Shown here one piece after another: positions 3,872-51,953 of a stretch of 60,966 nucleotides of DNA. Position numbers and translations under genes: made by a program. The first letter of the stretch is position 1. Every line of letters begins with the position of its first letter. Below the pieces are notes generated by a model, which saw only the letters and a program-made list of their open reading frames with translations, ran no database searches and was not told the DNA's origin. Origin of the DNA: Rhodocyclaceae bacterium (GTDB lineage Bacteria; Pseudomonadota; Gammaproteobacteria; Burkholderiales; Rhodocyclaceae); the NCBI GenBank assembly GCA_026415155.1, contig JAOAHQ010000001.1:1-60966 (forward strand), written 5' to 3'.

Positions 3872-3891
3872 GCCGTCCCGCCAGCGCCGAA
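3872..3891 (-). repeat. Dispersed 20-bp repeat, copy 1 (intergenic)
   Basis: Exact match to NTCGGCGCTGGCRRGACGGC on the minus strand. It sits between the T-run of the phasin terminator and the stop codon of the next, convergent gene. Confidence 0.85.
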
Positions 3892-3893
3892 TT

Positions 3894-4655
3894 TCAGACC
3901 TTGAGGTCGAAGCGGTAACCGAGCGCGGCCACCCCCGCCTTGAGCGCCTCGATCGCCTTGGCGACGGCTGCCGGCTCGCCGCGCACGCCGAGCTCGACGT
4001 GACGGCGCAGCGTCTCGCTGCCCAGGAATGGCAGGCTAAAGACGGTGACGCCGGGAAAATCCGCCTCGGTCTTTCTCATGAGATCGAGCATCCTGCCCTC
4101 GAGGCCCTCCCAGACGAGGATCGCCGCCTCGGCCTCGGCCCCTTGCCGGAAATCGTCCGCATAGTAGGTGTCGAGCACCCATTCGGCCATCGGCCAGGCC
4201 ATTTGCGGAAAGCCGGGCAGGAAGTGGTGATCGCGGAAGGAAAAGCCGGGAATGCGGTTGTAGGGGTTCGGGATGATGCGGCTGCCCGCGGGCACGGTGC
4301 CCAGCTCCAGCCGCGCCGGTGTGACCGGCTCGCCGAGCTCGGCCATGCGCGCACGGATCTCGCGCTCGGCCTCTGGATTGAGCTCGAGCGGCACGCCGGC
4401 CGCCGCCGCCGCGGCCTGGCGGGTGTGGTCGTCGGGCGTGACCCCAATGCCGCCGCAGGAGAACACCACATCGCCACTCGCGAGCGTGCGGCGGAAGGTC
4501 TCGATGAGCCGCGGCCGCTCATCGCCCAGGTATTCGGCCCAGGACAGATGAAGCCCTCGCGCGGCCAGGAGCTCGATGAATTTCGCGAGATGCTTGTCCT
4601 GCCGCTTGCCGCGCAGGATTTCATCGCCGATGATGATGAGGCCATAGGTTCTCAT
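3894..4655 (-). CDS. Molybdopterin-binding (MoaB/Mog-like, CinA N-terminal type) protein
   Basis: Cytoplasmic protein of the competence/damage-inducible protein A family, containing one MoCF-binding (MoaB/MogA-like) domain. The 253 residues start with YGLIIIGDEILRGKRQDKH and carry the hallmark FSCGGIGVTPDDHT. A second part has a conserved IPNPYNRIPGFSF/LPGFPQM segment. The C-terminal CinA amidohydrolase domain is absent, as in many betaproteobacterial members. The ATG was chosen because it overlaps the stop of the upstream EI24 gene (ATGA). The function of these stand-alone proteins is not settled: a molybdopterin or nucleotide-pyrophosphatase role is possible. Confidence 0.82.
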   Translation of the reverse strand: MRTYGLIIIGDEILRGKRQDKHLAKFIELLAARGLHLSWAEYLGDERPRLIETFRRTLASGDVVFSCGGIGVTPDDHTRQAAAAAAGVPLELNPEAEREIRARMAELGEPVTPARLELGTVPAGSRIIPNPYNRIPGFSFRDHHFLPGFPQMAWPMAEWVLDTYYADDFRQGAEAEAAILVWEGLEGRMLDLMRKTEADFPGVTVFSLPFLGSETLRRHVELGVRGEPAAVAKAIEALKAGVAALGYRFDLKV

Positions 4656-5374
4656 AGCACGATTCCCTTCTCCTGCCGCAGCGCGCGCAGGGCAGTGAGG
4701 CACAGATGGACGAAGAGGAGCGCCGTGAAAGGCAAGGCGAGGAGATTGACGAGCGGCACGGCGGCCACGAGCGCGCCAAGAAGGCCGGCGAGATAAAGCG
4801 CCGGCCGCTCGCGGCGGATGAGCTCGCGGCGCTCTTGGGGCGAAGCATGCTCGGCGAGCGCATCGAAGCGGAAAGCGCGCTGGTTGAGCCAGGCCGACCA
4901 GAAGAAGGGCAGCACGACGAGCCCGCCGGGGATGAACAGAAGCGGCAGCGTGACGAGCCAGCCTGCGACGAAGATCAGTCCGGCGATGACGGTGTTGGCA
5001 AGGCTGCCCCAGAAGGCGGCCGCGCTCGATCCATGGCGCGAGACGTCTGGGTAGTCGCGCCGCGCGACGATCGCCATCATGCGCGGCAGCGCGAAGACGG
5101 CGACGAGGAGGAGCGTCGTGAAATAGATGAGTGGCGCGAAGACGAAGAACACCGCGACATGGGCAAGCCACGGCCCCAGCCAGACCAGCCATTGCCAGTC
5201 CGGCAGGTTTGCCACGATCCAGGCGGCGAGTGGCTGCCAGGCGAACCAGGCGATGACCGACCAGACGAGGAAGGCGAGCACGGGCGGCCAGAGGGCATGC
5301 CACAACATCTCCGGCCGCAAGAGATCGCGCGCGGCGCGCAGCACGGTCCTGAAAAAGCTCGCCAGTTCCATCAT
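4652..5374 (-). CDS. EI24/CysZ-like integral membrane protein
   Basis: Inner-membrane protein of about 240 residues with roughly five or six hydrophobic segments (around 28-50, 72-100, 128-165 and 195-225). It belongs to the EI24 (etoposide-induced 2.4/CysZ-like) family. CysZ imports sulfate, but the substrate of this betaproteobacterial branch is unknown. The start ATGATG overlaps the hrpA stop, and the stop overlaps the start of the MoaB-like gene. The hrpA-EI24-MoaB genes therefore form a coupled minus-strand unit. Confidence 0.75.
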   Translation of the reverse strand: MMELASFFRTVLRAARDLLRPEMLWHALWPPVLAFLVWSVIAWFAWQPLAAWIVANLPDWQWLVWLGPWLAHVAVFFVFAPLIYFTTLLLVAVFALPRMMAIVARRDYPDVSRHGSSAAAFWGSLANTVIAGLIFVAGWLVTLPLLFIPGGLVVLPFFWSAWLNQRAFRFDALAEHASPQERRELIRRERPALYLAGLLGALVAAVPLVNLLALPFTALLFVHLCLTALRALRQEKGIVL

Positions 5375-8300
5375 CCTCTCACCCGTCCCTGCCACATCTT
5401 CTGCAAGCGTTTGACCGACACCGGGCTCGGCGTCTTGAGTTCCTGCGCGAAGAGCGCGACGCGCAGCTCTTCGAGCAGCCAGCGGAATTCTTGCAGAAAG
5501 GGATCCGTCTGGCCGGCCTTTTTCATCGCGTGCCATTCGCGCGCCCAAGGCTGGGCGAGGGCCTGCCATTCCTTCATGAGCCGCTCATCGCGCGCCGGAT
5601 CGTTCCTGAGCTTGTCGAGCCGCAGGCTCGCCGCTTTCAGATAGCGCGGCAAGTGCTGCAGGCGCTCCCAGGGCGTCTCGATGAGAAAGCGCTTGGGCAA
5701 GATCTCGGCGAGTTGCGCCGCGATGTCGGCATGCACTTGCGGAAAGGTTTTTTGCACGGGGGCGAGCTTCTTTTGCAAGGCGCCGTATTCGGCGAGGATC
5801 TGACCGAGCAGCCGCACGATCTCCTGCGCGACGAGCAGCACGCGCCCCTTGGCCGCCTCGCGCCGCGCGTCGAAGCTCGCCTCGTCCGTCGGCAGGGGCG
5901 CCATCAGACAGGTGCGTTCGAGGGTGGCGGCGACGAGCTGCTCCTTGAGCTCCTTCTCCGAGCCGAAAGGCATGAACTGCAGGGCCATGGCGCGCAACTC
6001 CGGCAGTTTTTCGATGGCCTGCACTTGCGGCTTCAACTGCAGGGCAAAGAGGCGCGCAAGGCCCTTGCGGTGCTCGGCGGCCGCCTTCTCCTCGGTATCG
6101 AAGGCCGATAGCCGCACGCCGTCGCCTGCATCGACGAGCGCCGCAAAGCCGATCACGCTTCGCCCGCCGACCTCGACCTCGACGAGCTCGGGCAGCGTGC
6201 CGAAGGTCCAGGCGGTCGATTTTTGGGCCGAAGGGGCCGTCTCGCCAGCGCCGACTTTCGCCACCTCGGCGGCGGCGAACGCCTGCGCCACGCGCTCGCC
6301 GAAGCGTGCGCGCAGCTCGGCGAGATTGCGGCTCATCGCTAGTGTGGCGCCATGCTCGTCGAGCAGGCGATAGTTCATCGACAGATGCGCCGGCAGCTCG
6401 CCTGGCCGCAAGGCATCGAGCGGCAGCTTGAGCGCGATCCTCTCCTCGATCGCGCGGGTGAGCGCCTTGACGAGCGGCTCGTCCCGGTCGTGCTCGAGGG
6501 CGCAAAAGTCCTCGGCAAAGGCTTCGAGCGGCTGCACGCGGTGGCGGTATTTCTGCGGCAGGGTCTTTAGGAGCGCGACGACCTTCTCCTTGAGAAGCCC
6601 CGGCACCAGCCATTCGAGCCGCGTGGCAGGCAGCTGGTTCAAGGCCGCAAGCGGCAGAGCAAGCGTCACCCCATCGTCCGCCGCGCCGGGATCGTGCTTG
6701 TAGCTGAGCTTGAATTTCTGGCCGCGGTGCTCGAAATACGGCGGAAAGGCCGCCGTGGTGATGCCCGCCGCCTCGTGGCGCATCAGCTGGTCTTTTTCGA
6801 GGAACAGCAGCTGTGGATTTTCGCGCTCCGCCTCGCGGCGCCAATGGTCGAAGGCAGCCAGCGAATAGATGCCTGGCGGGATCCTGGCATCGAAGAAGGC
6901 GAACACGAGCGCATCATCGACCAGCACATCGGGCCGGCGCGCCTTGTGCTCAAGCCGCTCGATCTCGGCCTTGAGCCTCTGGTAGTGCTGGAGGAACTTC
7001 CACTTCTTCAGCCACTCGTCGGTGACCTGGCCTTCGACGAGCGCGCCGCGGATCATGATCTCGCGCGCGAGCTTGGGATCCTTCGGGCCAAAGTGGATGC
7101 GGCGCTTCGCGTGCAGCGTCAGGCCGTGCAGCGTCACGCGCTCGTAGGCGACGACCTGGCCGGCATTCTTCTCCCAGTGCGGCTCATAGACATAGCGGCG
7201 AATCAGATGCGCGCCGACTTCTTCCAGCCACTCGGGCTCGATCTTCGCAATGCAGCGCGCAAAGAGCCGCGAGGTCTCGACAAGCTCCGCGGCGACGATC
7301 CAGCGCCCCGCCTTTTTCGCCAGGGATGAGCTCGGATGGATCCAGAACTTGATGCCGCGCGCGCCGAGGTAGTTCTTGTCCTCTTCGTTGATGAGGCCGA
7401 TGTGGCCCAAGAGGCCCGTCAAGAGCGCCTTGTGAATGGCCTCATACGACGCGGCCACTTGATTCTCCTTCCAGCCGTGCTCGTGGGCGAGCGTCATCAG
7501 CTGGCCATGCACGTCGCGCCATTCGCGCATGCGCAGCCAGTGGAGGAAGTTTTGCCGGCACCACTGCTTTTGCTTGCTGCTGCTTTGGTGCCGCCAGACT
7601 TCATCCGCCGCGGCCCAGAGCTTCAGATACGAGAGAAACTCGGATTTCTCGTCCTTCCACTTCGCATGCGCCTGATCGGCCGCGGCGGCCTGCTCCTGCG
7701 GCCGCTCGCGCGGGTCTTGCACCGAGAGCGCCGAGGCGATGACGAGCATCTCCTTCAAGCAGCCGAAATCGCGCGCGGCGATGAGCATGCGGCCGATCTT
7801 CGGATCGAGCGGCAGCTTCGCGAGCTCGCGGCCGATCGGCGTGAGCTCCTTCGTCGCTTCATCGAGCGCGCCCAGCTCGGCGAGGAGCTGGTAACCGTCG
7901 GCGATCATGCGCGGCGCCGGCCGCTCGAGGAAGGGAAATTCCTCGACGTCGCCCAAGCGCAGCGACTTCATGCGCAAGATCACGCCGGCCAGCGACGAGC
8001 GCAGTATTTCGGGATCGGTGTAGCGCGGGCGCTTTTGAAAATCCTCTTCCGAATAGAGCCGGAAGCACACGCCCGCCGAGACCCGCCCGCAGCGCCCCGC
8101 CCGCTGGTTCGCCGCCGCCTGGGAGATCGCCTCGACCTGCAATTGCTCGACCTTGTTGCGGGGCGAGTAACGCTTGATGCGGGCTAGCCCCGTGTCGATC
8201 ACATAGCGGATGCCCGGCACGGTGAGCGAGGTCTCGGCGACGTTGGTCGCCAGCACCACGCGGCGGCCCTGATGCGGCGCGAAGACGCGCGCTTGCTCTT

Positions 8301-9111
8301 CAGCACTCTGGCGCGCATAAAGCGGCAGGATTTCGAGCCCTGGCGAGTGGTGTTTCCTGAGCGCCTCGGCCGCTTCCCTGATCTCGCGCTCGCCAGGCAG
8401 GAACACCAGCACGTCGCCGGGGCCGGTACGGTGCGCCTCCTCGAGCGCTTCGACGATCGCGTCGTTGAGATCGACGTCTTTTTTCTCGTCGAAGGGGCGG
8501 TAGCGAATCTCGATCGGATAGAGGCGGCCCGAGACTTCGATCACCGGCGCGTCATCGAAATGTTTCGAGAAGCGCTCGGCATCGAGGGTCGCCGAGGTGA
8601 TGATCAGTTTCAGGTCGTGCCGTCTCGCCAGCACCGACTTCAAATAGCCGAGCAGGAAGTCGATGTTGAGGCTCCGCTCGTGCGCTTCATCAATGATCAG
8701 CGTGTCGTAGGCTTTGAGCAGCGGATCATTCTGCGTCTCGGCGAGCAAAATGCCATCCGTCATCAGCTTGATGAAACTTTCGGGTGAGGTGCGGTCGGTG
8801 AAGCGGATCTTGTAGCCGACATAGCGGCCAAGCTCCGATTTCAGTTCCTGCGCAATGCGGCTGGCGGTCGCGCGCGCGGCGATGCGCCGCGGCTGGGTGT
8901 GGCCGATGTAGCCTTTGAGCCCCCGGCCGATGTCGAGGCAGATCTTCGGCAATTGCGTGGTCTTGCCCGAGCCGGTCTCGCCGCAGACGACGACGACCGG
9001 GTGCTGCGCGATCGCCTGCGCGATCTCGGCCCGGCGGAGATTGACGGGCAGATTCTCGTCAAAAGAGATGGGCGGGAGAGCGGCGCGGCGGGCCTCAAAA
9101 TCGAAACGCAT
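5371..9111 (-). CDS. hrpA: ATP-dependent RNA helicase HrpA (DEAH family)
   Basis: Superfamily 2 DEAH-box helicase implicated in mRNA processing and resolving stalled ribosomes. The 1246-residue protein shows Walker A GETGSGKTTQ, the DEAH box in IIDEAHERSLN, ITSATLD (motif III) and QRAGRCGR (motif VI). The helicase-associated and OB-fold regions follow, and then the long DUF3418 C-terminal region typical of HrpA (E. coli is about 1300). It is intact and first in a three-gene unit. Two copies of the dispersed 20-bp repeat lie inside it (6236-6255 and 8619-8638), in two different reading frames. Confidence 0.95.
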   Translation of the reverse strand: MRFDFEARRAALPPISFDENLPVNLRRAEIAQAIAQHPVVVVCGETGSGKTTQLPKICLDIGRGLKGYIGHTQPRRIAARATASRIAQELKSELGRYVGYKIRFTDRTSPESFIKLMTDGILLAETQNDPLLKAYDTLIIDEAHERSLNIDFLLGYLKSVLARRHDLKLIITSATLDAERFSKHFDDAPVIEVSGRLYPIEIRYRPFDEKKDVDLNDAIVEALEEAHRTGPGDVLVFLPGEREIREAAEALRKHHSPGLEILPLYARQSAEEQARVFAPHQGRRVVLATNVAETSLTVPGIRYVIDTGLARIKRYSPRNKVEQLQVEAISQAAANQRAGRCGRVSAGVCFRLYSEEDFQKRPRYTDPEILRSSLAGVILRMKSLRLGDVEEFPFLERPAPRMIADGYQLLAELGALDEATKELTPIGRELAKLPLDPKIGRMLIAARDFGCLKEMLVIASALSVQDPRERPQEQAAAADQAHAKWKDEKSEFLSYLKLWAAADEVWRHQSSSKQKQWCRQNFLHWLRMREWRDVHGQLMTLAHEHGWKENQVAASYEAIHKALLTGLLGHIGLINEEDKNYLGARGIKFWIHPSSSLAKKAGRWIVAAELVETSRLFARCIAKIEPEWLEEVGAHLIRRYVYEPHWEKNAGQVVAYERVTLHGLTLHAKRRIHFGPKDPKLAREIMIRGALVEGQVTDEWLKKWKFLQHYQRLKAEIERLEHKARRPDVLVDDALVFAFFDARIPPGIYSLAAFDHWRREAERENPQLLFLEKDQLMRHEAAGITTAAFPPYFEHRGQKFKLSYKHDPGAADDGVTLALPLAALNQLPATRLEWLVPGLLKEKVVALLKTLPQKYRHRVQPLEAFAEDFCALEHDRDEPLVKALTRAIEERIALKLPLDALRPGELPAHLSMNYRLLDEHGATLAMSRNLAELRARFGERVAQAFAAAEVAKVGAGETAPSAQKSTAWTFGTLPELVEVEVGGRSVIGFAALVDAGDGVRLSAFDTEEKAAAEHRKGLARLFALQLKPQVQAIEKLPELRAMALQFMPFGSEKELKEQLVAATLERTCLMAPLPTDEASFDARREAAKGRVLLVAQEIVRLLGQILAEYGALQKKLAPVQKTFPQVHADIAAQLAEILPKRFLIETPWERLQHLPRYLKAASLRLDKLRNDPARDERLMKEWQALAQPWAREWHAMKKAGQTDPFLQEFRWLLEELRVALFAQELKTPSPVSVKRLQKMWQGRVRG
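6236..6255 (-). repeat. Dispersed 20-bp repeat, copy 2 (inside hrpA)
   Basis: Exact match to the consensus on the coding strand of hrpA, preceded by GAAA. It is read as KVGAGETA. Confidence 0.85.
8619..8638 (-). repeat. Dispersed 20-bp repeat, copy 3 (inside hrpA)
   Basis: One mismatch to the consensus (TCGGTGCT for TCGGCGCT), on the coding strand. It is read as KSVLARRH, a different frame from the other hrpA copy. The surrounding residues align to the conserved helicase segment before ITSAT without a length change. Confidence 0.7.
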
Positions 9112-9883: not shown

Positions 9884-11553
<1,670 letters not shown>

Positions 11554-11558
11554 GGGAA

Positions 11559-12386
11559 ATGAAATTCACCGAACTGCTCGCCGGCGCCTGGGCGAAGAAC
11601 GATTCGCTCCTGTGCGTCGGCCTCGATCCGGATCCGGCGAAATTCCCGCCGCACCTCAAGGACAAGCCCGACCGCATCTATCGCTTTTGCACCGCGATCG
11701 TCGATGCCACGGCCGATCTCGTCTGCGCCTTCAAACCCCAGATCGCCTACTTCGCCGCGCGCCGCGCCGAAGCCGAGCTCGAGGCGATCATCCATCACAT
11801 CCACGAATTCCATCCCGGCATTCCGGTGATCCTCGATGCCAAGCGCGGCGACATCGGCCCCACCGCCGAGCAGTATGCGATCGAAGCCTTCGAGCGCTAC
11901 AAGGCCGACGCGGTGACCGTGAACCCCTACATGGGCCGCGACTCGCTCGAGCCTTGGCTTGCCTACGCAGACAAAGGGGTGATCCTGTTGTGCCGCACCT
12001 CCAACCCTGGCGGCAGCGACCTCCAAGCCCTCGAAGTCGGCGCCAGCAGGACGGCACTCTTCGAGCGCGTCGCCGAGAAAGTCGCCAAAGAATGGAACAC
12101 GACAGGGCAGTGCGGCCTCGTCGTCGGCGCGACCTTCCCCCAGGAGCTCGCCCGCGTGCGCGCGATCGTCGGCGACATGCCGCTCCTCGTGCCCGGCATC
12201 GGCGCGCAAGGCGGCGACATCTCAGCGACCGTGAAGGCCGGCCAGACGGCGGCCGGCACCGGGCTCATCATCAATTCCTCGCGCGCCATCCTCTATGCCG
12301 GGCAAGGCGAAGATTTCGCGCAGGCCGCGCGCGGGGCCGCGCTGGAAACCCGTGACACGATCAACCGTTACCGCAAGGAGACATGA
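11559..12386 (+). CDS. pyrF: Orotidine 5'-phosphate decarboxylase (type 2)
   Basis: Converts OMP to UMP, the last step of pyrimidine synthesis. The 275-residue length and motifs ([18 protein letters not shown], the catalytic [40 protein letters not shown]) identify the longer type 2 enzyme. AAGGGA just before the ATG serves as the ribosome site. The segment [13 protein letters not shown] (12036-12055) is encoded by a diverged copy of the dispersed 20-bp repeat. Confidence 0.96.
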
Positions 12387-14995: not shown

Positions 14996-15015
14996 GCCGT
15001 CCCGCCAGCGCCGAT
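14996..15015 (-). repeat. Dispersed 20-bp repeat, copy 4 (intergenic)
   Basis: Exact consensus match, preceded by AAAA on its own strand. It lies 11 bases beyond the MITE and just before the ccdAB promoter. Confidence 0.85.
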
Positions 15016-15071: not shown

Positions 15072-15091
15072 CGCAGATGGAGGAAGGGCTC

Positions 15092-18957: not shown

Positions 18958-19589
18958 TGGACGCGCTCGTCGCCGCTGTAATTCACGATGCCAAGAACGC
19001 GCTGATGGCGCTCGATGCGCGGCTTGCCGAGGCAGAGAGCCGTCCTGTCAGCACCGACTTTGCCACCTTACGCGGCAGCCTCGCGCGCATCGCCCAAGAA
19101 CTTGCCGAACTGCTGACACTCTACCGCGCGCAGCAGGGCGCCTTGCGGCTTGCCATCGACGACCACGACCTCCTCGACTTCCTCGACGAGCTTGCCCTCG
19201 AACTCGGGCCGCCGCCGGAAGGCATTGCGCTTAAGCTCGATCGCGCCGCCGCGCAACGCATTGGCGCCTGGGCCTTCGACGCCCATCTCGTCAGGCTCGC
19301 CCTCGCCGATGCGCTGAGAAATGCCTTGCGCCATGCCAAGACGCGCGTCACGCTCTCACTCGATCAGCCCGCCGGGGGCGGCATTCGTTTCATCGTGCAG
19401 GATGACGGCCCCGGCTTTCCTGCGCCGCTTTTGGCGGGTGAAGAACAAGTCGCCTCTGCCGGCGGCACGGGGCTGGGGCTTCTTTTCGCCCGCCTGATCG
19501 CCGCCCATCACGCCACACCCGATGGCCGGCACGGCCGCCTCGAGCTTGCCAACGACGGCGGGGCGGTCTTCAGCTTGTATCTACCCTGA
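18957..19589 (+). CDS. Small soluble sensor histidine kinase
   Basis: A 210-residue kinase with only a dimerisation/phosphoacceptor helix (AAVIHDAKNALMALDARL, His at about residue 9) and a HATPase domain (N box ALRNALRHA, G1 DDGPGFP, G2 GTGLGL). There is no membrane segment and no sensor domain, so the input must come from a partner, perhaps the TPR part of the upstream regulator (inference). The start overlaps the regulator stop by one base. The region 19039-19058 carries a weak copy of the dispersed repeat (two mismatches, antisense). Confidence 0.85.
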   Translation: MDALVAAVIHDAKNALMALDARLAEAESRPVSTDFATLRGSLARIAQELAELLTLYRAQQGALRLAIDDHDLLDFLDELALELGPPPEGIALKLDRAAAQRIGAWAFDAHLVRLALADALRNALRHAKTRVTLSLDQPAGGGIRFIVQDDGPGFPAPLLAGEEQVASAGGTGLGLLFARLIAAHHATPDGRHGRLELANDGGAVFSLYLP

Positions 19590-23143: not shown

Positions 23144-24003
23144 GCCTGCCCGCTCCGTTCGAGCACGCTCAATAGCCGCGCGGTATCTTCCCTGCCCCAG
23201 CCGGCGGCCATCAAGGCATTGAGCTGCTGCATCACCGCCGCGGCGACCGGCAGCGGAAGCCCCGCGGCGGCGGCCTCGGCGAGGATCATCACGAAGTCCT
23301 TGTGGTGGAGCCGTGCCTCGACGCCGGCGGCAAAGTCGCGCGCGAGCATCTTGCCGCCGAAGACGTCGAGCACGCGCGAGGCGGCCGAGCCGCCTTGCAT
23401 CGCAGCCCGCACGCGCGCGAAATCGACGCCGCAAGCGGCGGCAAGCCGCGCCGCCTCGGCACAGGCTTCGATGGCGGCGACCATGACGAGCTGATTACAG
23501 GCCTTGGCCACCTGGCCGGCGCCAGCCTCGCCGACATGGACGATCGTCTTGCCGAGGCAAGCAAAGAGCGGATCAAGCCGTCCCGCCAGCGCCGAGTTTC
23601 CGCCCCACATGATCGACAAGCTGCCCGCCCGCGCACCCGTCGTGCCGCCCGAGACCGGCGCATCGACGAAATGGCAGCCGCGCCGCTCATGAAGATGCGC
23701 GAGCTCACGTGCGGTCGAGGGCGCGATCGTCGAGAAATCGACGTGGATGGCCTCAGGCGCCAGCCCCTCGCTGAGCCGCTCGGCGAGCATCACGACATCG
23801 GCATCGGCCGTGACATTGGTGCAGACGATCTCGGCCCGTCGCGCCAGCGCCGCCGGATGCTCCGCCCAGGCGGCGCCCAGAGCGAGCAGCGGATCGGCCG
23901 CTTCGGGGCGGCGCGCCCAGACGACGAGCTCATGACCGGCGGCCAGGAGGCGCTCGGCCATCGGCCGCCCCATCCCCCCAAGGCCGATGAAGCCGATCCT
24001 CAT
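23140..24003 (-). CDS. NAD(P)-dependent beta-hydroxyacid dehydrogenase (HIBADH/GarR family)
   Basis: A 287-residue oxidoreductase. The Rossmann N-terminus is MRIGFIGLGGMGRPMAERL. The substrate-binding segment is FVDAPVSGGTTGARAG and the catalytic Lys is in GAGQVAKACNQL. Relatives act on 3-hydroxyisobutyrate, tartronate semialdehyde or glyoxylate/succinic semialdehyde, and the substrate cannot be fixed from sequence. The segment GGNSALAGRL is encoded by an exact copy of the dispersed 20-bp repeat, with no length change against the usual family pattern. A metabolic enzyme inside a signalling operon is unexpected. Confidence 0.88.
   Translation of the reverse strand: MRIGFIGLGGMGRPMAERLLAAGHELVVWARRPEAADPLLALGAAWAEHPAALARRAEIVCTNVTADADVVMLAERLSEGLAPEAIHVDFSTIAPSTARELAHLHERRGCHFVDAPVSGGTTGARAGSLSIMWGGNSALAGRLDPLFACLGKTIVHVGEAGAGQVAKACNQLVMVAAIEACAEAARLAAACGVDFARVRAAMQGGSAASRVLDVFGGKMLARDFAAGVEARLHHKDFVMILAEAAAAGLPLPVAAAVMQQLNALMAAGWGREDTARLLSVLERSGQA
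23577..23596 (-). repeat. Dispersed 20-bp repeat, copy 5 (inside the dehydrogenase gene)
   Basis: Exact consensus match on the coding strand, preceded by GAAA, read as NSALAGRL. Confidence 0.85.
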
Positions 24004-27863: not shown

Positions 27864-28097
27864 TTACGCACAGCCTTTGCCGCAGTCGGCCGTCTCGGGA
27901 ACGCCGAGTTTCTTGAGGATGGTATCGAGCGGGCAAAACTGCGTGAAGCCGCTCTGAAAGAGGTTCGCGCCGACGAAGAGCGTGAACCACAGCCAGCTCA
28001 TCTGCGAAAGATCCACCTGGCCCATGGCATGGGCAAGGCCCAGTGAAAGCAGGATGAAGAAGCCGGCGACGATGCGGACGATGCGATTGACGGTCAT
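27864..28097 (-). CDS. DUF2892 (YgaP-type membrane) protein
   Basis: A 77-residue membrane protein with two hydrophobic helices (about 8-28 and 34-52) and a C-terminal Cys-containing tail (QFCPLDTILKKLGV and CGKGC). It matches the DUF2892 family, often found with rhodanese, ArsR/BigR regulators and RND or MFP genes in sulfide- or thiol-related operons. It lies three bases after the RND permease gene and is probably the last gene of that operon. Confidence 0.85.
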   Translation of the reverse strand: MTVNRIVRIVAGFFILLSLGLAHAMGQVDLSQMSWLWFTLFVGANLFQSGFTQFCPLDTILKKLGVPETADCGKGCA

Positions 28098-31301: not shown

Positions 31302-32309
31302 TTATTTGCCCGCCGCGGCCTGTTTCATCTCGATGCCGGTCTTGACCGGATCGAGGCTGATCGTCTCACCGGCCGAGAGGCCCGAGAGCACCTCGACTTC
31401 GCCATCGGCGACGGCTTCGCCCAACCGCACCTGACGCAAGACGGGCCTGCCCTCCTTGATCACATAGACGGCGGCAATCTCGCCGCGGCGCAGGATCGCA
31501 GACGGCGGCACGGTGAGCTTTTGCGCCGTACCGACGACGAAATGCACGCGTGCCGCCATGCCGGGCACGAGTCCTTCGAGCTCGGGCAGATAGACGCGCG
31601 CCGTCGCGGTGTGGCTTTGCGCGTCGATGGTCGGCAGGATCTCGATCTTCGTGCCGTCCTGCCAGCGCCGAGCCTTGTCCTCGGGAAACTCGACGCGCGC
31701 GAGTTTCGCCTGCCGCGCTTCCTTGAGCTTGTACTGCGGAATGCTCGCCACGGCGCGCAAGCCTTTCGGATCAAAAACAGTCACCAGCGGCTTGCCGGGC
31801 ATCGCGAGATCACCGAGTTCCGCATGGCGCTGGGCGACGATGCCACTGATCGGCGCGGTCACCACGGCATGCGAAGCACCGGCGCCGGCGGCCGCCGCCT
31901 GGGCGCGTGCGGATTTCAACTGCGCCTCGGCGGCATCGAGCGCGGCCTGGCTCACGAACTTCTTCTGAAAGAGGTTCAGCGTGCGCTGGTAGTTCGCCTC
32001 GGCTTCAGCAAGCCTGGCCTTCGCCGCGGCGACGTTCTCGGCCGCCTCGCGCGCATCGACGCGCATCAGGAGCTGACCCGCGGCGACTTTCTGCCCCGCT
32101 TCGGCCCTGACCTCGACGATGCGGCCGGCCACTTGCGTCGCGACGACCGCCTGCCGGGTTGCCTCGATCACGGCCTCGGCGGGCAGCGTGAGCTGGACTT
32201 CGCGCAGCTCGAGCGTGCGCGTCTGAGCCCAGGCCGGCAGGGCAAGACAAGCCGCCAGCAGCATCAGCCACGGCCTTTTTTGGGGTCGGGAAAGAAGGAG
32301 CGTTTTCAT
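31302..32309 (-). CDS. RND efflux periplasmic adaptor (membrane fusion protein)
   Basis: A 335-residue HlyD/AcrA-type adaptor. After an N-terminal signal sequence (residues 1 to about 28, ending ALPAWA) come the lipoyl half-motifs (VAGRIVEVRAEAGQKVAAGQ and VVTAPISGIVAQRHAELGD), a coiled coil between them (about 90-140) and a beta-barrel. No lipobox Cys is seen. An outer-membrane TolC-like gene is not adjacent. Residues KARRWQDGT are encoded by an exact copy of the dispersed 20-bp repeat (31653-31672). No clear ribosome site precedes the ATG, which follows an AT-rich segment. Confidence 0.92.
   Translation of the reverse strand: MKTLLLSRPQKRPWLMLLAACLALPAWAQTRTLELREVQLTLPAEAVIEATRQAVVATQVAGRIVEVRAEAGQKVAAGQLLMRVDAREAAENVAAAKARLAEAEANYQRTLNLFQKKFVSQAALDAAEAQLKSARAQAAAAGAGASHAVVTAPISGIVAQRHAELGDLAMPGKPLVTVFDPKGLRAVASIPQYKLKEARQAKLARVEFPEDKARRWQDGTKIEILPTIDAQSHTATARVYLPELEGLVPGMAARVHFVVGTAQKLTVPPSAILRRGEIAAVYVIKEGRPVLRQVRLGEAVADGEVEVLSGLSAGETISLDPVKTGIEMKQAAAGK
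31653..31672 (-). repeat. Dispersed 20-bp repeat, copy 6 (inside the adaptor gene)
   Basis: Exact consensus match on the coding strand, read in a third frame as RRWQDG. Confidence 0.75.
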
Positions 32310-32704: not shown

Positions 32705-34002
32705 GTCCTCTCCTTGGCGATTTGACTCCAAATATTGCGGCAATGCGTCTCGCGCAGCCACCAGGCCGCCGCGGCCCCCGCCCAGGCGGCCGCGGCGATC
32801 AGGAGGAGTCCCCAGCGGTAGTCCTCGGGCGCATAGACGCGCACGCCGTTCTGGAGAGTACCCTGCCAGCGCAAGTCCATGATCTTGCCAACGGCCGGCT
32901 GCAAGAGCGCCCCCATCAAAAAGCCGCCCATGTTCGCCACCGAGGTCGACATGCCCGAGAGCGCAGGGGGATTGACCTCCTTGGCGCAGGCCCAGGAGAG
33001 CGTGAAGCTCGCCGTCATGAGGCCCATGAGCCCGAAGAGCGCATAGCTGACGGGAAGCGGCAAGATAAGGCCCGAGAGCCACACCGGCCAGATGAGCGCG
33101 AGAATCGATGCGCTCGCGATGACCACTGGCTTTCTGCGCCGCAGGCGGTCGGAGAGCGTGCCGATCGCGAGGCAGCCTACCGCGAAGCCGGCGAAGTAGA
33201 GCGACAGATGCGCCGTGGCGGTGGCGCGTGTCATGCCGAGCCCCTGGGTGAGGAAAGGCGTGGCCCACAGGCCGCCGAAGGCGAAGAAGCTGCCTGAGAG
33301 CCCGGCATTGACGAACACCGCCGGCCAGGTGGCGCGGTTTTTCACGACGGCGAGGAGGCCCGAGAGGATCACCGTTCTGTCGAAAGTCGGCGCTGGCGGG
33401 ACGGCCACTTCTCGGCTCGGCGGCCGATCGCGCACGAAGAGCCAGGCAAGCACGCCAAGCAGAAGCGAAACGATGCCGACACCGACGAACACGCCGCGCC
33501 AGCCGAAGTTCTGCGCGAGCCACGACAAGGGCGAGCCGGCGAGCACCGAGCCCAAGTTGCCGATCAGCATCGAGGCACCGACCACACTCGCAAAGCGCCG
33601 CTCCTCGAACCAGACGGCGATGATCTTCAGCATCGCAATGAAGACGACGGAGACGCCCAGCCCCACGAGCGTGCGGCCGACGAGCGCCGCATCGAGGCTG
33701 CCCGCAAGGCCAAAGAGCAGGCTGCCGCCGCCGGCGACGAGTCCGCCCAAGAGCAGGATGCGGCGCGGGCCCAAGGTGTCGACGAGGATGCCGGTGGGCA
33801 CCTGCATGACCGTATAGACGTAGAAATAGGTCGCGGCCAGGACGCCCAAGGAGGCGGCGGAGGTCTGAAAGCTCGCGGCGAGATCCTGCGCGATGCCGGC
33901 GGGTGCAAAGCGCTGGAAGAACGAAAGCACATAGGCCGCGACGACGACGGCCAAGGCCAGCAATCGGCGGCGGCGCTGGGCGGGGGTCAGCGAGAGGTTC
34001 AT
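32701..34002 (-). CDS. Major facilitator superfamily transporter
   Basis: A 433-residue membrane protein with about 12 hydrophobic helices. It shows an MFS signature between helices 2 and 3 (GILVDTLGPRRILL) and a related motif in the second half (GTLSDRLRRRKP). The substrate is not evident. Similarity of the N-terminus (FFQRFAPAGIAQDLAASF) is to the OFA/NarK-like general branch. It is coupled to the chelatase gene downstream. An exact repeat copy lies antisense within it (33386-33405), encoding PPAPTF in the central loop. Confidence 0.9.
   Translation of the reverse strand: MNLSLTPAQRRRRLLALAVVVAAYVLSFFQRFAPAGIAQDLAASFQTSAASLGVLAATYFYVYTVMQVPTGILVDTLGPRRILLLGGLVAGGGSLLFGLAGSLDAALVGRTLVGLGVSVVFIAMLKIIAVWFEERRFASVVGASMLIGNLGSVLAGSPLSWLAQNFGWRGVFVGVGIVSLLLGVLAWLFVRDRPPSREVAVPPAPTFDRTVILSGLLAVVKNRATWPAVFVNAGLSGSFFAFGGLWATPFLTQGLGMTRATATAHLSLYFAGFAVGCLAIGTLSDRLRRRKPVVIASASILALIWPVWLSGLILPLPVSYALFGLMGLMTASFTLSWACAKEVNPPALSGMSTSVANMGGFLMGALLQPAVGKIMDLRWQGTLQNGVRVYAPEDYRWGLLLIAAAAWAGAAAAWWLRETHCRNIWSQIAKERT
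33386..33405 (+). repeat. Dispersed 20-bp repeat, copy 7 (antisense inside the MFS gene)
   Basis: Exact consensus match, preceded by GAAA, on the strand opposite to the gene. The coding strand reads VPPAPTF, a fourth reading of the same DNA word. Confidence 0.85.
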
Positions 34003-34498: not shown

Positions 34499-35842
34499 TC
34501 AAGACTTGCGCAGCAGCCAGCCGAGCACTGGCGGCGTGATCAGCGTGGTGAGGATCACCATGATGACGATCACCGAAAACATCGCTTCGTCCATCACGCC
34601 GAGCTGCTTGCCGACCATCGCGAAGATGAGGCCCACCTCGCCGCGCGGCACCATGCCCCAGCCGACGATCCAGCGGCCAGATTCACCCGCGAGCACGCCC
34701 GCGGCGAGCTTGCCGAGGACCGCCGCCGCGGCAACCCCCAGGGCGATGGCGACGATGGTCGGGTCGGTGAGCGTTCTCAAATCCACCTGCATGCCGGTGA
34801 GCACGAAGAACACCGGCACGAAGAAGTAGCCGATCGGCTCGAGCATGTGCTCGTGCTGGTGACCCGCGTGCCTGGCCAGGATCGGCAGCAGCCGATCCAT
34901 GAGCGGCCGGCTTTCAGGCTCTCTCATCAAGGGCTCGATCTCCTGGACGATCTTCGGCGTCTGGAAATCCTTGAGGAAGAGCGGCTCGAAAAGCAGCCCC
35001 GCGGCGAAGGCGCCGATGATCGGGGCCAGCCCAATCGCCTGGGCCAGCCACGCGAGCGCAAGCCCCGTGGCGAGCACCTGGGCAAAGAGCATCGACGGCC
35101 CGGCATCGAGCCGCGCAAGCCAGCGCGAGGAGTGGGGGGCGATCTTGCGGCCAAGCCAAATGCTTCCGCCGAGGAAGAGCACCGCCTCCAAGATGATCCA
35201 GCTCACTTCGGCCAGGCTCACCGAACCGGCCTGCACAAGGCTCGTCACGACGGCGAGGATCACGAGGCCCAGCACATCGTCGATGACGGCGGCGCCCAGC
35301 ACGATGCGTGCAGCCGGGGTATCGAGCTTGCCCAGATCGCGGAAGACGCGGCCCGTGATGCCCACCGAGGTGGCCGACAACGTCGCGCCGAGAAAGAGAT
35401 AGGTGTTCTGTGACAGGCCAGGCAAGAGCAACGGCCCGACGACGAAGGCGCCGAGGAGAAATGGCAGGGCGATGCCGATGACGCCGACGGCCGTCGCGCG
35501 CGCGCCGACTTTCACGAGATCGGCAAGCCGCGTCTCGAGGCCGATCTGCAGCAAGAGCACGATGACGCCGAGCTCGGCGATGAAGGCGATGATCGGGTCC
35601 TTGGCGATGGTTTCGAAGAGGCCAATGCCGAACAGCGCGAGATTGCCGAGCAAGACGCCGAGCAGGAGCTCGCCCAATACGGCCGGAAAGCCAAAGCGCG
35701 CCGCGATGGGCGAGAAAAGCCGCGCGCTCATCAAGATCAGGGCAAGCCAGAGCAGGTTTTCCCCGACCGCGCCCCCGCCCGCGGCAAGCGCAGGCAAGGG
35801 CAGGCACAGCGCCAACGCCAGCGCGATGCGCGGCATCTGCAT
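34499..35842 (-). CDS. CPA2-type cation:proton antiporter (KefB-like, no RCK domain)
   Basis: A 447-residue membrane protein that starts with a probable signal peptide or extra helix (MPRIALALALCLPLPALA). It continues with the Na+/H+ exchanger fold of about 12 helices (FGFPAVLGELLLGVLLGNLALFG, LLQIGLETRLADL, and AAVIDDVLGLVILAVV with the ion-binding Asp pair). The cytoplasmic TrkA/RCK nucleotide-binding domain of Kef proteins is absent. It follows the NhaD/citrate-type transporter by two bases, suggesting joint use. A diverged repeat copy (35490-35509, three mismatches) encodes KVGARATA. Confidence 0.88.
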   Translation of the reverse strand: MQMPRIALALALCLPLPALAAGGGAVGENLLWLALILMSARLFSPIAARFGFPAVLGELLLGVLLGNLALFGIGLFETIAKDPIIAFIAELGVIVLLLQIGLETRLADLVKVGARATAVGVIGIALPFLLGAFVVGPLLLPGLSQNTYLFLGATLSATSVGITGRVFRDLGKLDTPAARIVLGAAVIDDVLGLVILAVVTSLVQAGSVSLAEVSWIILEAVLFLGGSIWLGRKIAPHSSRWLARLDAGPSMLFAQVLATGLALAWLAQAIGLAPIIGAFAAGLLFEPLFLKDFQTPKIVQEIEPLMREPESRPLMDRLLPILARHAGHQHEHMLEPIGYFFVPVFFVLTGMQVDLRTLTDPTIVAIALGVAAAAVLGKLAAGVLAGESGRWIVGWGMVPRGEVGLIFAMVGKQLGVMDEAMFSVIVIMVILTTLITPPVLGWLLRKS

Positions 35843-38596: not shown

Positions 38597-38616
38597 CTCG
38601 GCGCTGGCGAGACGCC
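38597..38616 (+). repeat. Dispersed 20-bp repeat, copy 8 (intergenic)
   Basis: One mismatch to the consensus (GACGCC for GACGGC), preceded by GAAA. It lies between the nuclease-like gene and the next antiporter gene. Confidence 0.8.
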
Positions 38617-40637: not shown

Positions 40638-43308
<2,671 letters not shown>

Positions 43309-43776: not shown

Positions 43777-44439
43777 TCAAGCGCCTTCGATCAGGAGGAG
43801 ATGCACGCGCGAGGGGCCATGCGCGCCTAGCACGATGGTCTGCTCGATGTCGCCGGTGCGCGAGGGGCCCGAGACAAAATTGACTGCCCGCGGCAAGGCG
43901 CCCAACTCCGCGCGGGCGAGGGCAAAGGCCTCTTCCATGGCCGGCACGATGCGGGAAGCCGGCACGAGCGCGATGTGGGTCTCAGGCAGGAGGCTCACGG
44001 TGGCCGGCGTGGCGGGGCCGCTGCAGAGCATCAGCGTTCCCGTTTCGGCGATGGCGCAAAAACAGCCCGTGATGCCAACGCGGTCGGCATCTACGGCGCC
44101 GCGCGCTTGGATTGCCAGCCCCACGCCTGCCCAGTCCAGAGCGGCCAGCGCCGGCCAGACAACCGCCTGGGCTGGCAAGCCATTCGTCGCGAGGTAGCGC
44201 GCCACGGCCGCCGGCGCCTCGGCAAGGCTCGCCACGCAATCGACCGTGCTCGACTGAGCGAGCGACTTTTCGATGAGCCGTCCTGCCAGCGCCGACTTTT
44301 GTGTGTCGATCGCCGGGCGCGGCCCGATAGCCTTCGCGGCGAGGGTCGCCTCGAGGGCGGCGCGCGCCGCGGCAGCGTTCGCTTCGCTGCGATTTAGCCG
44401 CGCACGCAGGCGGGCCAAAATGTCCTCACGGCTCGTCAT
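43777..44439 (-). CDS. lutC: Lactate utilisation protein LutC
   Basis: A 220-residue LUD-domain protein, third subunit of the LutABC L-lactate oxidation system, which feeds electrons from lactate into metabolism. Diagnostic parts are REDILARLRARL at the N-terminus, VGITGCFCAIAETGTLML and the C-terminal SGPSRTGDIEQTIVLGAHGPSRVHLLL. Its start overlaps the lutB stop (ATGA). KSALAGRL near residue 50 is encoded by an exact copy of the dispersed 20-bp repeat (44277-44296). Confidence 0.94.
   Translation of the reverse strand: MTSREDILARLRARLNRSEANAAAARAALEATLAAKAIGPRPAIDTQKSALAGRLIEKSLAQSSTVDCVASLAEAPAAVARYLATNGLPAQAVVWPALAALDWAGVGLAIQARGAVDADRVGITGCFCAIAETGTLMLCSGPATPATVSLLPETHIALVPASRIVPAMEEAFALARAELGALPRAVNFVSGPSRTGDIEQTIVLGAHGPSRVHLLLIEGA
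44277..44296 (-). repeat. Dispersed 20-bp repeat, copy 9 (inside lutC)
   Basis: Exact consensus match on the coding strand, preceded by AAAA, read as KSALAGRL. This is the same frame as the copy in the dehydrogenase gene. Confidence 0.85.
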
Positions 44440-45842: not shown

Positions 45843-46561
45843 GACTTAGCCGTCAGCACTTCGGCGATGTGCAAGACCTGCGTCGTCTCATCACCCATAC
45901 GCCTCAACTTCCCTTCGATGTTGAGCAGACAGCCTAAATCGCCGCCGACGATCGCGGCAGCACCCGTCGCACAGGCATTCGCGCATTTGCGTTCCGCGAT
46001 TGCAGCCGAAATTTCCCCGAACTTGACCGAGAAGGTGCCGCCGAAGCCGCAGCACTCTTCGGCGCCATTCATCTCCAGCACCTCGACGCCGGCGCGTTTG
46101 AGCAGCGCGCGCGGCTGCGCCTTGATGCCGAGGCTGCGCAAGCCGGTGCAGGAATCGTGATAGGTGACGCGGCCAGCGAATCGGCCCGGCACGGCTTCCA
46201 GCCTCACGACATGGACAAGGAAGTCGGTGAGCTCATACACGCGGCGGCCGAGCGCGACGGCCCGGGCCTGCCACTCCGGCTCATCGCCGAGGATGGCCGG
46301 ATATTCGTGCTTGATGTGATCGGCGCAGGAGCCGGAAGGCACGACGACGTAGTCGAAGCCTTCGAACTCGGCGATGAGCTTTTTGGCCAGCCTGATCGCG
46401 CTGGCGCGGTCGCCCGAGTTCCAGGCCGGCTGGCCGCAGCAAGTTTGTGTCTCGGGCACCTCGACCTCGCCGCCTGCCGCTGTGAGAAGTTCGAGCGCGG
46501 CAAAGCCGACGCGCGGCCGCATCAGGTCGATAAGACAAGTGACGAAGAGGGCGACCTTCAC
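45839..46561 (-). CDS. lutA: Lactate utilisation protein LutA (CCG-domain)
   Basis: A 240-residue protein with two CCG (DUF224) cysteine motifs, TCCGQPAWNSG and ECCGFGGTFSVKFGEIS, which bind unusual iron-sulfur centres as in heterodisulfide reductase and glycolate oxidase subunits. The start is a GTG at 46561 with only a weak ribosome site. The 35 bases between this start and the endopeptidase stop are occupied by one copy of the dispersed repeat. No lactate permease or LutR-like regulator is adjacent. Confidence 0.94.
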   Translation of the reverse strand: MKVALFVTCLIDLMRPRVGFAALELLTAAGGEVEVPETQTCCGQPAWNSGDRASAIRLAKKLIAEFEGFDYVVVPSGSCADHIKHEYPAILGDEPEWQARAVALGRRVYELTDFLVHVVRLEAVPGRFAGRVTYHDSCTGLRSLGIKAQPRALLKRAGVEVLEMNGAEECCGFGGTFSVKFGEISAAIAERKCANACATGAAAIVGGDLGCLLNIEGKLRRMGDETTQVLHIAEVLTAKS

Positions 46562-46576: not shown

Positions 46577-46596
46577 GTCGGCGCTGGCCCGACGGC
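46577..46596 (+). repeat. Dispersed 20-bp repeat, copy 10 (intergenic, before lutA)
   Basis: Two mismatches, both at the variable RR position (GGCCCGACGGC), preceded by AAAA. It ends exactly where the endopeptidase stop codon begins and lies about 16 bases from the lutA start. Confidence 0.75.
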
Positions 46597-47568: not shown

Positions 47569-47715
47569 GCGGCGTTCCCGTTGCTGGCTAGATCGTTCGT
47601 AAAGCGGGCCAAAGTGTAACAGCCGGCCGGTTGCCAAGGCTATCCCTTCGGCCAGAATTCTCTTTTACCCAATAACGAACTTTCTTGATTCGAATTAAGT
47701 GATTGGATTAGGAAA

Positions 47716-50010
<2,295 letters not shown>

Positions 50011-50051
50011 GATGAGCTCCTTTCTCGATCTAGGCATTCTAGGCCTGATCG

Positions 50052-50065
50052 GCCGATCGATCGGC
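50052..50065. promoter_or_regulatory. 14-bp perfect palindrome between maeB and pckG
   Basis: GCCGATCGATCGGC is a perfect palindrome in the 131-base divergent intergenic region, about 40 bases from maeB and 76 from pckG. It may be an operator shared by both genes. No regulator is known to me for this exact word. Confidence 0.35.
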
Positions 50066-50141
50066 TCTATGGCAGAATGCGCCCCTTCATCAACGAGAGC
50101 GCTCCTATGACGGGCGCCGCTAAGCCAGAGTGGAGAAAACC

Positions 50142-51953
50142 ATGTCACACGCCCCGGACTACGTCCGTCACGAAAAGCTGAAAGCCTGGGTCGCCGAAGT
50201 CGCAGCCCTGACCGAGCCCGCCCGCATCCACTGGTGCGACGGTTCCCAGGAAGAATACGACCGCCTGTGCGCCGAGATGGTCGCGGCCGGCACCTTCGTC
50301 AGGCTCAACCCCGAGAAGCGGCCGAACTCGTATCTGGCCTGCTCCGACCCTCCGGATGTCGCGCGCGTCGAGGACCGCACCTTCATCTGCTCGGCCCGCC
50401 AGGAAGACGCCGGCCCCACCAACAACTGGGAAGATCCGGCGAAGATGAAGGAAACGCTCAAGGGCTTGTTCAAGGGCTCGATGCGCGGCCGCACGATGTA
50501 CGTGATCCCCTTCAGCATGGGCCCCTTGGGCTCGCCGATTTCCCAGATCGGCGTCGAGATCTCCGATTCCCCCTACGTCGTCGTCAACATGCGCATCATG
50601 ACGCGCATGGGCAAGGCCGTCTACGACATCCTGGGTACGGATGGCTTCTTCGTGCCCTGCCTGCACTCGGTCGGTGCGCCGCTCGAACCCGGCCAGAAAG
50701 ACGTCAAATGGCCCTGCAACCCGACCACCAAATACATCGTGCATTTCCCCGAGACCCGCGAGATCTGGTCTTACGGCTCGGGCTACGGCGGCAACGCATT
50801 GTTGGGCAAGAAGTGCCTGGCGCTCAGGATCGCCTCGACGATGGCGCGCGACGAGGGCTGGCTCGCCGAACACATGCTGATCCTCGGCGTCGAATCGCCG
50901 CAAGGAGAGAAGACCTATGTCGCCGCCGCCTTCCCCTCGGCCTGCGGCAAGACCAACTTCGCGATGCTGATCCCGCCGCAGAGCTTCAACGGCTGGAAGG
51001 TGACCACGGTCGGCGATGACATCGCCTGGATCAAACCCGGCCCCGACGGCCGCTTCTACGCGATCAACCCCGAGGCCGGCTACTTCGGCGTCGCCCCCGG
51101 TACGTCGGAGAAGACCAACGCCAATGCTATGGCCACCTTGAAGGAAAACGTGATCTTCACCAACGTCGCCTTGACCGACGACGGCGACGTTTGGTGGGAG
51201 GGCATGGGGCCGGCGCCGGCGCACTGCATCGACTGGCAGGGCAAGGACTGGACGCCCGAGGATGGCAAGGCGGGCAGGAAAGCCGCGCATCCGAACGCGC
51301 GCTTCACCGCGCCCGCCTCGCAATGCCCCTCGATCGACCCGGACTGGGAAAACCCGCAGGGCGTGCCGATCTCGGCCTTCATCTTCGGCGGCCGGCGCGC
51401 CACCACCGTGCCGCTCGTCTATGAAGCCTTCAACTGGAACTACGGCGTCTATATGGCGGCAACACTCGGCTCCGAGACCACCGCCGCCGCCTTCGGCCAG
51501 CAGGGCGTGGTGCGCCGCGACCCCTTCGCGATGCTGCCCTTCTGCGGCTACCACATGGGCGACTACTTCAACCACTGGCTGAAGATGGGCCACGTCGTCG
51601 AACACACGCCGCGGATCTTCTGCGTCAACTGGTTCCGCATGAACGAGAAAGGCGAATTCCTCTGGCCGGGCTTCGGCGAGAACATGCGGGTGCTCAAGTG
51701 GATCGTCGATCGCGTGCAGGGCAAAGTCGGCGCTCGCGAGACGGCATTGGGGTGGATGCCGCGTTTCGAGGACATCGACTGGACGGGCCTTCCCATCAGC
51801 CGCGCCGAGTTCGAAGCGCTCACCCAGATCGACGCTGACGCCTGGAAGCAGGAACTCGCCAGCCACAAGGAATGGTTCGACAAGCTCGGCGAGAAGCTGC
51901 CGAGACAGCTTGCCTTGAAACGCGACCTCTTTGAACTGGCGCTGATCGACTGA
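50142..51953 (+). CDS. pckG: Phosphoenolpyruvate carboxykinase (GTP)
   Basis: Interconverts oxaloacetate and PEP using GTP/GDP, the entry to gluconeogenesis. The 603 residues show [16 protein letters not shown] (P-loop with the hyper-reactive Cys), GDDIAWI, and the C-terminal [21 protein letters not shown] and [16 protein letters not shown]. The ATG is preceded by TGGAGA. Growth on lactate through LutABC would need this enzyme, so the cluster is coherent. KVGARETA is encoded by a repeat copy (51726-51745) at a place where homologues show the same length. Confidence 0.97.
51726..51745 (+). repeat. Dispersed 20-bp repeat, copy 11 (inside pckG)
   Basis: One mismatch (GCTCGC for GCTGGC) on the coding strand, preceded by CAAA, read as KVGARETA. 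It is the last copy seen before the right end of the window. Confidence 0.75.

Follow-up and report, generated by a model that had tools for sequence, protein, structure and literature searches.

A 19-nt word, TCGGCGCTGGCRRGACGGC, is repeated along a 60,966-nt stretch of DNA (contig JAOAHQ010000001.1 of assembly GCA_026415155.1, Rhodocyclaceae bacterium, positions 1–60,966 of the forward strand; hereafter, the window) and throughout the draft genome from which it comes (G000, hereafter the own genome; 2.38 Mb, 83.5% complete). Judged from sequence comparisons, the word probably constitutes a DNA uptake sequence system outside Neisseriaceae and Pasteurellaceae, the only two families from which uptake tags are known according to a 2025 article (PMC12616744). 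Among the processes known to us, uptake bias is the one to which the large number of copies, their origin in place with altered protein, the coherence of the dialects, and the evenness of the spread point together. We also lean slightly toward a broader view, in which a third family has its own uptake language: a 23–25-bp tag of two cores and an A-tract, with at least six spellings in six genera, accompanied by genetic parasites, namely 54-bp units at existing words (even in frame in ispH) and apparently gene-free cassettes of roughly a word plus an attC site.

Abundance and layout of the word

A mismatch search of the window yielded 17 matches to TCGGCGCTGGCRRGACGGC at three or fewer mismatches (11 on the minus and 6 on the plus strand), whereas 100 dinucleotide shuffles averaged 0.42 matches and never gave more than 2. 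This confirms the over-representation noted in a preliminary description of this DNA. The search also recovered, in place, every copy and weak copy listed in that description, seven of them exact, and added two three-mismatch copies at 23835 and 27889; the former lacks an A-tract and may be a chance match. Across the own genome, we found 237 exact copies (121 forward and 116 reverse; reversed-pattern control, 0) and 539 copies at two or fewer mismatches (272 and 267; control, 3), which rules out restriction to one locus.

A motif drawn from 124 copies (three or fewer mismatches, 424 kb of the own genome) consists of an AAA tract, TCGGCGCTGGC, two purines, and GACGGC. The AAA that had been noted before most copies is part of this motif; positions −4 to −2 are A in 78%, 78%, and 83% of copies. 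In the relatives G017 and G002, two further positions that are free in the own genome are specified, A at 85–86% followed by C at 70% and 55%. The layout is an A-tract, a GTCGGCGCTGG core, a looser stretch, and an ACGGC core, spanning approximately 23 bp in the own genome and 25 bp in G017 and G002, a little longer than the 20 bp first described.

The word had also been reported on both strands, in genes and between them, and this holds for the own genome. Gene calls from a custom script (402 genes in 395 kb of G000, 93% coding) placed 79 of 106 copies at two or fewer mismatches in genes and 27 in intergenic DNA, although non-coding DNA made up only 7%. In-gene copies use both orientations and mainly tolerated reading frames (28 in sense-1, 26 in antisense-0, 15 in antisense-1, 7 in sense-0, and 3 in the two phase-2 frames). 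Synonymous-codon shuffling of the own genome (60 shuffles) left on average 0.08 exact copies, where 36 were observed, and 2.6 with one mismatch, where 28 were observed; in G017 (30 shuffles), 0.13 and 0.33 were expected against 15 and 13. There was no excess in the own genome at two mismatches (14 vs. 10.5 expected) or three (15 vs. 23.8), probably because the shuffle retains word-shaped peptides. Exact and one-mismatch copies thus far exceed a codon-aware expectation, the comparison that the preliminary description had asked for. One frame of the word does read GAGKTA or GAGGTA, and P-loop-like codons produce scattered two-mismatch matches in other genomes, so that the word might be considered a coding artefact that reflects a P-loop-like VGAGKTA or some alanine-rich stretch that recurs. 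However, the occurrence of copies in both orientations, in several frames, and between genes, together with base-specific differences between dialects, makes this hardly credible, and we rejected a simple coding or P-loop artefact on the codon shuffle.

Origin of copies and dialects

The clearest view of how a copy arises comes from the RNA helicase gene at 5371–9111, where the copy at codon 159 reads AAG TCG GTG CTG GCG AGA CGG (KSVLARR). Genomes outside the genus, including the word-rich G019 of another genus, have residues of the KQLLPKR, KQLLPRR, or KQILPKR type at this site, mostly at equal length, and the word-less genus member G006 has KRLLPRR. Among the other members of the genus, the spelling is graded and reaches the exact word in G008, and G018 and G003 have a 12-base length change at the site. 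As the aligned sequences indicate, the word was gained here by point substitution, with amino-acid change, in a conserved helicase. At the phosphoenolpyruvate (PEP) carboxykinase site (51727), two relatives (L100 and L203) lack the word with sequence length unchanged.

An ortholog survey of 87 own-genome words gave 95 alignments spanning a site, 87 of them with flanks at least 65% identical and 84 of these in genes. The relative was scored as having the word in 41 of the 84 in-gene alignments and as lacking it in 43; among the latter, 20 were gap-free, 5 more were of equal length (25 same-length alignments), and 18 differed by −7 to +13. In-place mutation is clear at the helicase site and in the 20 gap-free alignments. 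Given same-length substitutions in the clearest cases and the lack of a fold in the solitary word, a transposon or repetitive extragenic palindromic (REP) origin of solitary words was rejected.

Whole genomes differ in how they spell the word. Within the genus (19 genomes), counts of canonical, GGCGGC, and GACGGT copies were 237, 1, and 0 in the own genome; 226, 7, and 1 in G017; 3, 197, and 1 in G016; and 7, 0, and 146 in G005. The 17 genomes other than G016 and G005 have at most 10 GGCGGC and 17 GACGGT copies. Between genera, spellings were read from 60 kb for each of six genomes (4–16 copies apiece), and varied in the A-tract, C or T at one core base, GCTGGC or GCTGGT, and two looser bases. 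The g2 spelling is mostly AGAGTCGGCGCTGGCGnnACGGCGA-like (9 copies listed), that of g9 contains GGYGCTGG (15 copies listed), and that of g104 has GTG after the core in three of four copies. Spellings are coherent inside a genome and differ among relatives, and the core remains constant. That hundreds of unlinked copies switch the same base together suggests the action of a factor that recognises every copy.

In addition, G016 carries a second repeated word, ATGCCAGACAT-like, of which an 11-mer recurs 10 times within 80 kb (L468–L471), and in G002 overlapping 12-mers around CTAATGGACAATCTGGG occur in 10–12 copies in 380 kb (L175–L193).

Distribution of the word

The word or a dialect of it is numerous in 18 of the 19 genus members, 16 of which hold 105–384 exact canonical copies, the other two being G016 and G005 with their dialects. 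The remaining member, G006, has 0 canonical, 0 GGCGGC, and 1 GACGGT copy. Of the 199 genomes sampled across the family, 21, belonging to 6 of 68 genera, hold 212–752 copies at two or fewer mismatches, and the next highest count is 41. Two genomes for which a 12-mer search was blank, G203 and G040 (60 kb each), yielded 4 and 6 varied copies at five or fewer differences. No over-represented word of their own was seen in G006, G023, and G043 (60, 40, and 40 kb examined, respectively).

In 386 sampled genomes from other families of the order, a scan for this core alone, which unrelated words would escape, found the dense word in none; each had five or fewer matches to AAGTCGGCGCTGGNNNNACGGC at one or fewer mismatches, and 27 had any. 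Small clusters of the word occur in some of these families (L456 in G094, L457 in G407, L458 in G071, L459 in G387, and L460 in G292), and three of the few AAGTCGGCGCTGGNNNNACGGC matches in G094 lie within 5 kb, as expected of transferred DNA pieces. Such clusters are perhaps DNA received from word-bearing species.

At least 114 stretches of named genomes contain the word. Among the matches listed, 94 bear the name of Rhodocyclaceae, of Rhodocyclales, or of a member genus (for example, Sulfuritalea, Sulfurisoma, Propionivibrio, Azonexus, and Accumulibacter), and 20 bear other names. The cultured Sulfurisoma sediminicola is represented by at least two exact copies. At least 120 viral stretches in IMG/VR carry the exact word. 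The 120 word-selected viral stretches contained 60 extra copies (two or fewer mismatches) in 1.10 Mb, or 0.054 per kb against 0.25 in the own genome, a low density that, in stretches chosen for the word, would be consistent with depletion in phage DNA.

Competence genes

Genes of natural transformation, for which the preliminary description had recommended a check, are present but do not discriminate. ComEC was found in 18 of 19 genus members, as well as in 10 of 14 controls. Pilins of the PF16732 (ComP_DUS) family are present in 17 of the 19 genomes of the genus and, family-wide, in 185 of 199, against 0 of 14 controls; GspH/FimT-type pilins occurred in 29 of 31 chosen genomes, being absent from the word-rich G103 and the word-less G028. 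In the own genome, three pilin genes follow one another behind a gene that we take to be ispH: a PF16732 pilin, a GspH pilin, and one with a pilin N-methylation motif. The best solved-structure matches of the candidate PF16732 pilin were meningococcal PilE and other pilins. ComEC and type IV pilin genes show capacity, not linkage to the word. A receptor could not be picked by presence or absence, as PF16732 and GspH/FimT pilins both occur with and without the word.

Hairpin units and integron cassettes

Some words are associated with a larger unit of 54–56 bp, consisting of a half-word, a loop, an inverted half-word, and a connector; it occurs singly or in tandem runs, mostly with a full word at the end (for example, G002 L179 at approximately 6194–6372 and own-genome contig C4 at 69477 and 82838). 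Among 32 genomes searched, arm matches numbered 8, 44, 12, and 56 in G000, G002, G004, and G017, respectively; G018 and G055 had one one-mismatch arm match each, not recognised as a full unit, and 26 had none. With loops and connectors alike across loci, the units look like one dispersed family. One composite of units is predicted to fold at −48.3 kcal/mol (z −5.5); such hairpin composites, seen in four species, may or may not double as transcription terminators. The solitary word does not fold (consensus z 0.28; two window copies with flanks, −0.38 and −0.44). The preliminary statement that the word is no hairpin accordingly stands for the solitary copy but fails elsewhere in the own genome, where the word lies within strong hairpin elements; insertion of the REP type applies to the derived 54-bp units alone. 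We read 30 distinct composites, 8 of which have a unit-free orthologous site: at 6 of the 8, the word stands alone in one or more relatives, and at 2 no relative has it. In ispH, a 54-bp unit (KVGAGGNEDVPPGADSPRKVGAGGAA) lies in frame in G002 (L265) where G017 has KLGAGGTA, and a different in-frame insert of approximately 87 bp occupies the same word in G008 (L260), with the frame staying open.

Integron arrays also contain words. In L301 (882–2330), an attC site whose end boxes are exact follows four of five words, and one recognised by eye follows the fifth; L047 (200–5930), a Sulfuritalea record, has nine words along with two or more attC sites. Words are in one orientation within each array, and the cassettes are apparently gene-free in the stretches read. 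An automatic test for an attC-like site within 200 bases after the word was positive for 2 of 177 words from viral loci, one of these sites being probably spurious. The corresponding figures were 1 of 209 words from named loci, 0 of 261 from G000, G017, and G002 combined, and 0 of 12 from other-family stretches; upstream mirror controls gave 1 of 209 words from named loci and otherwise 0, and random positions gave 0. The test misses many sites, as the L301 words show. Integron cassettes were rejected as a general explanation of the word, given the rarity of attC-like sites near words in this test.

Alternative explanations

The spacing of the word is more even than chance. For copies at two or fewer mismatches, the coefficient of variation (CV) of gaps was 0.60 against 0.95 (0.80–1.13) under random placement, and only 8 gaps were shorter than 1 kb where 22.5 were expected; among exact copies, the CV was 0.75 against 0.97 (0.76–1.24; P = 0.02). 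Regular spacing, like the length and high specification of the motif, is what would be expected if the word were bound by a protein that organises the chromosome or is linked to replication, along the lines of FtsK-orienting polar sequences (KOPS), parS, matS, or nucleoid-occlusion sites, and a changing DNA-binding protein could likewise drive dialect shifts. However, a GC-skew-linked orientation switch was not seen in two relatives, with modest power from 62 and 65 copies. In G017 (20 stretches; 29 plus and 33 minus), 14 plus and 13 minus copies lay in the positive-skew run and 15 and 20 elsewhere; in G002 (19 stretches; 23 plus and 42 minus), the two skew parts held 8 plus and 19 minus and 15 and 23, so that the excess of minus copies (42 of 65) kept its sign in both. 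A strand-oriented replication signal of the KOPS type was rejected on these samples. Because the word also invades conserved coding sequence with amino-acid change, and because it is dispensed with in G006 and in the majority of family genera sampled, we consider a chromosome-organising role unlikely. A Chi-like signal, acting inside the cell on recombination after uptake or in general rather than on uptake itself, would also spread through biased recombination, and Chi-type signals are over-represented. Known Chi sites are, however, approximately 5–8 bp long and skewed to the leading strand, whereas this word has 23–25 bp and kept to no replichore-dependent orientation in the stretches sampled, and sharp single-base dialects of a long word are atypical of such sites; this explanation is very improbable.

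The hairpin units raise the question of whether the word is instead the target or scar of a mobile mini-element, with units inserting at or excising from it and solitary words as leftover sites. Their position at words in 4 of 32 genomes, the solitary words in relatives at 6 of 8 comparable sites, and the second, different insert at the ispH word in G008 all fit this idea. Against it, 28 of the 32 genomes have no recognised full unit although 24 of these 28 are word-rich, solitary in-gene words arose by substitution at same-length sites in the clearest cases, and a 23-bp scar would shift reading frames. We therefore regard a mobile-element origin as quite unlikely.

The uptake-like reading, which the preliminary description had put forward beside a chromosome-organising site and a recombination signal, is the best supported, by the dialects, the gain by substitution, the use of both strands, the even spacing, and the background of ComEC and type IV pilins. 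It also withstood the genome-wide count and the codon-aware expectation, either of which could have refuted it. Several observations weigh against it. In the ortholog survey, 18 of the 43 word-less alignments differ in length, and 18 of the 43 come from the one helicase site; three rows come from one G005 gene present thrice. Displacement of the word by the aligner accounts for two or more of the 18 rows of unequal length, namely those comparing window site 6236 with L400 and L401, where exact words are present; the helicase stretch around this site aligns poorly among relatives. Clean loss of the word appeared in no row of the survey, from which a clean word-size gap could escape by splitting the alignment in two. 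ComEC and PF16732 pilins also occur in word-less relatives, G006 having ComEC, PF16732, and GspH matches, while GspH pilins were not found in the word-rich G103, so that no single receptor is pinned; none of the 22 listed solved-structure matches of the candidate pilin is named ComP. Mobile units use the word as a site, which makes a role in recombination possible, and the viral comparison was made on stretches without host assignment. Finally, the word is longer, at approximately 23–25 bp, than the DNA uptake sequence (DUS) of Neisseriaceae (up to about 13 nt according to PMC12616744) and rarer, with 539 copies at two or fewer mismatches in 2.38 Mb (approximately 1 per 4.4 kb) against 943–5918 copies of a 10-mer per genome in Neisseriaceae (PMC3630211).

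If the word is an uptake sequence, it would be recognised outside the cell, with a minor type IV pilin as the probable receptor, and naturally competent cells would thereby favour DNA of their own kind. Fragments gaining the word, or a better one, by mutation would be taken up and recombined more often, and words would build up by point substitution at tolerant sites in and between genes. As the preference of the receptor drifts, the whole word set of a genome would drift along, giving rise to dialects. In this scheme, we infer competence of the species, reading of the word by a pilin, and uptake bias as the driving force. Self-recognition in transformation would then have evolved, or survived, in more lineages, including environmental bacteria of the Rhodocyclaceae type. 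The system could also offer a comparison point for DNA reading by ComP-type pilins, and sister species with one-base tag differences would form a natural series in which spread of a tag by uptake bias could be set against selection. The word could further mark DNA acquired by transformation in these lineages.

Copies in the window

Copies in the window are listed in Table 1. Two other repeats were observed in the window: ATGCAGGAGACC occurs five times at 37825–38088, with spacings that are multiples of 21 bases, within the called gene 37696–38547 (+), and AGAAGGCTGCGG occurs five times on the minus strand at 52224–52427, with exact 48-base spacing, overlapping the called gene 52085–52609.

Table 1. 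Copies of the 19-mer TCGGCGCTGGCRRGACGGC in the window (positions of the window; OMP, orotidine monophosphate; MFS, major facilitator superfamily; ORF, open reading frame).
Copy	Position	Strand	Context
Exact	3872..3890	-	Preceded by aaat; between convergent genes, one on each strand
Exact	6236..6254	-	In DEAH/DUF3418 (HrpA-type) RNA helicase gene 5371-9111 (-), sense; encodes KVGAGETA
1 mismatch	8619..8637	-	In helicase gene 5371-9111 (-), from codon 159; encodes KSVLARR
Weak, 2 mismatches	12037..12055	+	In OMP-decarboxylase-family gene 11541-12386 (+)
Exact	14996..15014	-	Intergenic, between 13737-14840 (+) and 15029-15343 (+)
Weak, 2 mismatches	19039..19057	-	Antisense in histidine-kinase-like ATPase gene 18957-19589 (+)
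Exact	23577..23595	-	In 6-phosphogluconate/3-hydroxyisobutyrate dehydrogenase-like gene 23140-24003 (-)
Weak, 3 mismatches, AAAC tract	27889..27907	-	Small called gene 27864-28097 (-)
Exact, weak A-tract	31653..31671	-	In HlyD-type gene 31302-32309 (-)
Exact	33387..33405	+	Antisense in MFS transporter gene 32701-34002 (-)
Weak, 3 mismatches	35490..35508	-	In Na/H exchanger gene 34499-35842 (-)
1 mismatch	38598..38616	+	Intergenic, between 37696-38547 (+) and 38647-40395 (+)
Weak, 2 mismatches	41732..41750	+	In P-type cation ATPase gene 40624-43308 (+)
Exact	44277..44295	-	In called gene 43777-44439 (-); a longer ORF, 43777-45645, ends in a LUD domain
2 mismatches	46578..46596	+	Between 45839-46561 (-) and 46597-47637 (-)
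1 mismatch	51727..51745	+	In GTP-dependent PEP carboxykinase gene 50130-51953 (+)

Comparison with known systems

The word shares with the DUS, whose receptor is ComP, hundreds of dispersed copies in and between genes, species-coherent dialects with a constant core, hairpin arrangements, and a pilin of the ComP_DUS family in the genome. Neisseriaceae belong to the Betaproteobacteria, as does the word-bearing family. The 3′ part of the word, TGCCGTC on the other strand, resembles the canonical DUS, a likeness that could be due to chance. The two differ in length and build (approximately 23–25 bp and two-part, against 10–13 bp), in their letters, in density (lower for the word), and in family, and where the DUS has ComP as its receptor, the word has candidate pilins. 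Dialects and the same traits are described for the Neisseriaceae DUS in PMC3630211, and PMC12616744 summarises the traits for both uptake-sequence families and gives the DUS a length of up to about 13 nt. As a two-part motif of approximately 23–25 bp, the word was rejected as a DUS proper, which is continuous.

With the uptake signal sequence (USS) of Pasteurellaceae, whose candidate receptor is PpdA/ComN, the word has in common a long multi-part motif, dispersed copies, and dialects, and it too combines an A-tract with two G+C-rich cores. According to PMC12616744, the USS joins AT-rich parts to a 9-nt core, either AAGTGCGGT or ACAAGCGGT, and can reach a total of 32 nt. The core of the word, TCGGCGCTGG..ACGGC, is a different one, the order of parts differs (an upstream A-tract against two downstream AT segments of the USS), and the lineage is unrelated; it was rejected as a USS proper on its core. 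The 54-bp units, with their strong hairpins and tandem runs, recall REP elements and bacterial interspersed mosaic elements (BIMEs), and the words within cassettes recall integrons; yet the sampled words are mostly solitary, and the solitary consensus has no fold.

A search of open-access papers, by titles and the openings of abstracts, turned up no earlier report of the word, its length, its mobile units, or a Rhodocyclaceae uptake sequence, subscription papers and preprints lying outside this search. As a kind, the uptake tag is known; its family, sequence, length, and associated mobile units were not encountered in the literature searched. By analogy, the word appears to work like the DUS and the USS, being a member of neither by sequence or length.

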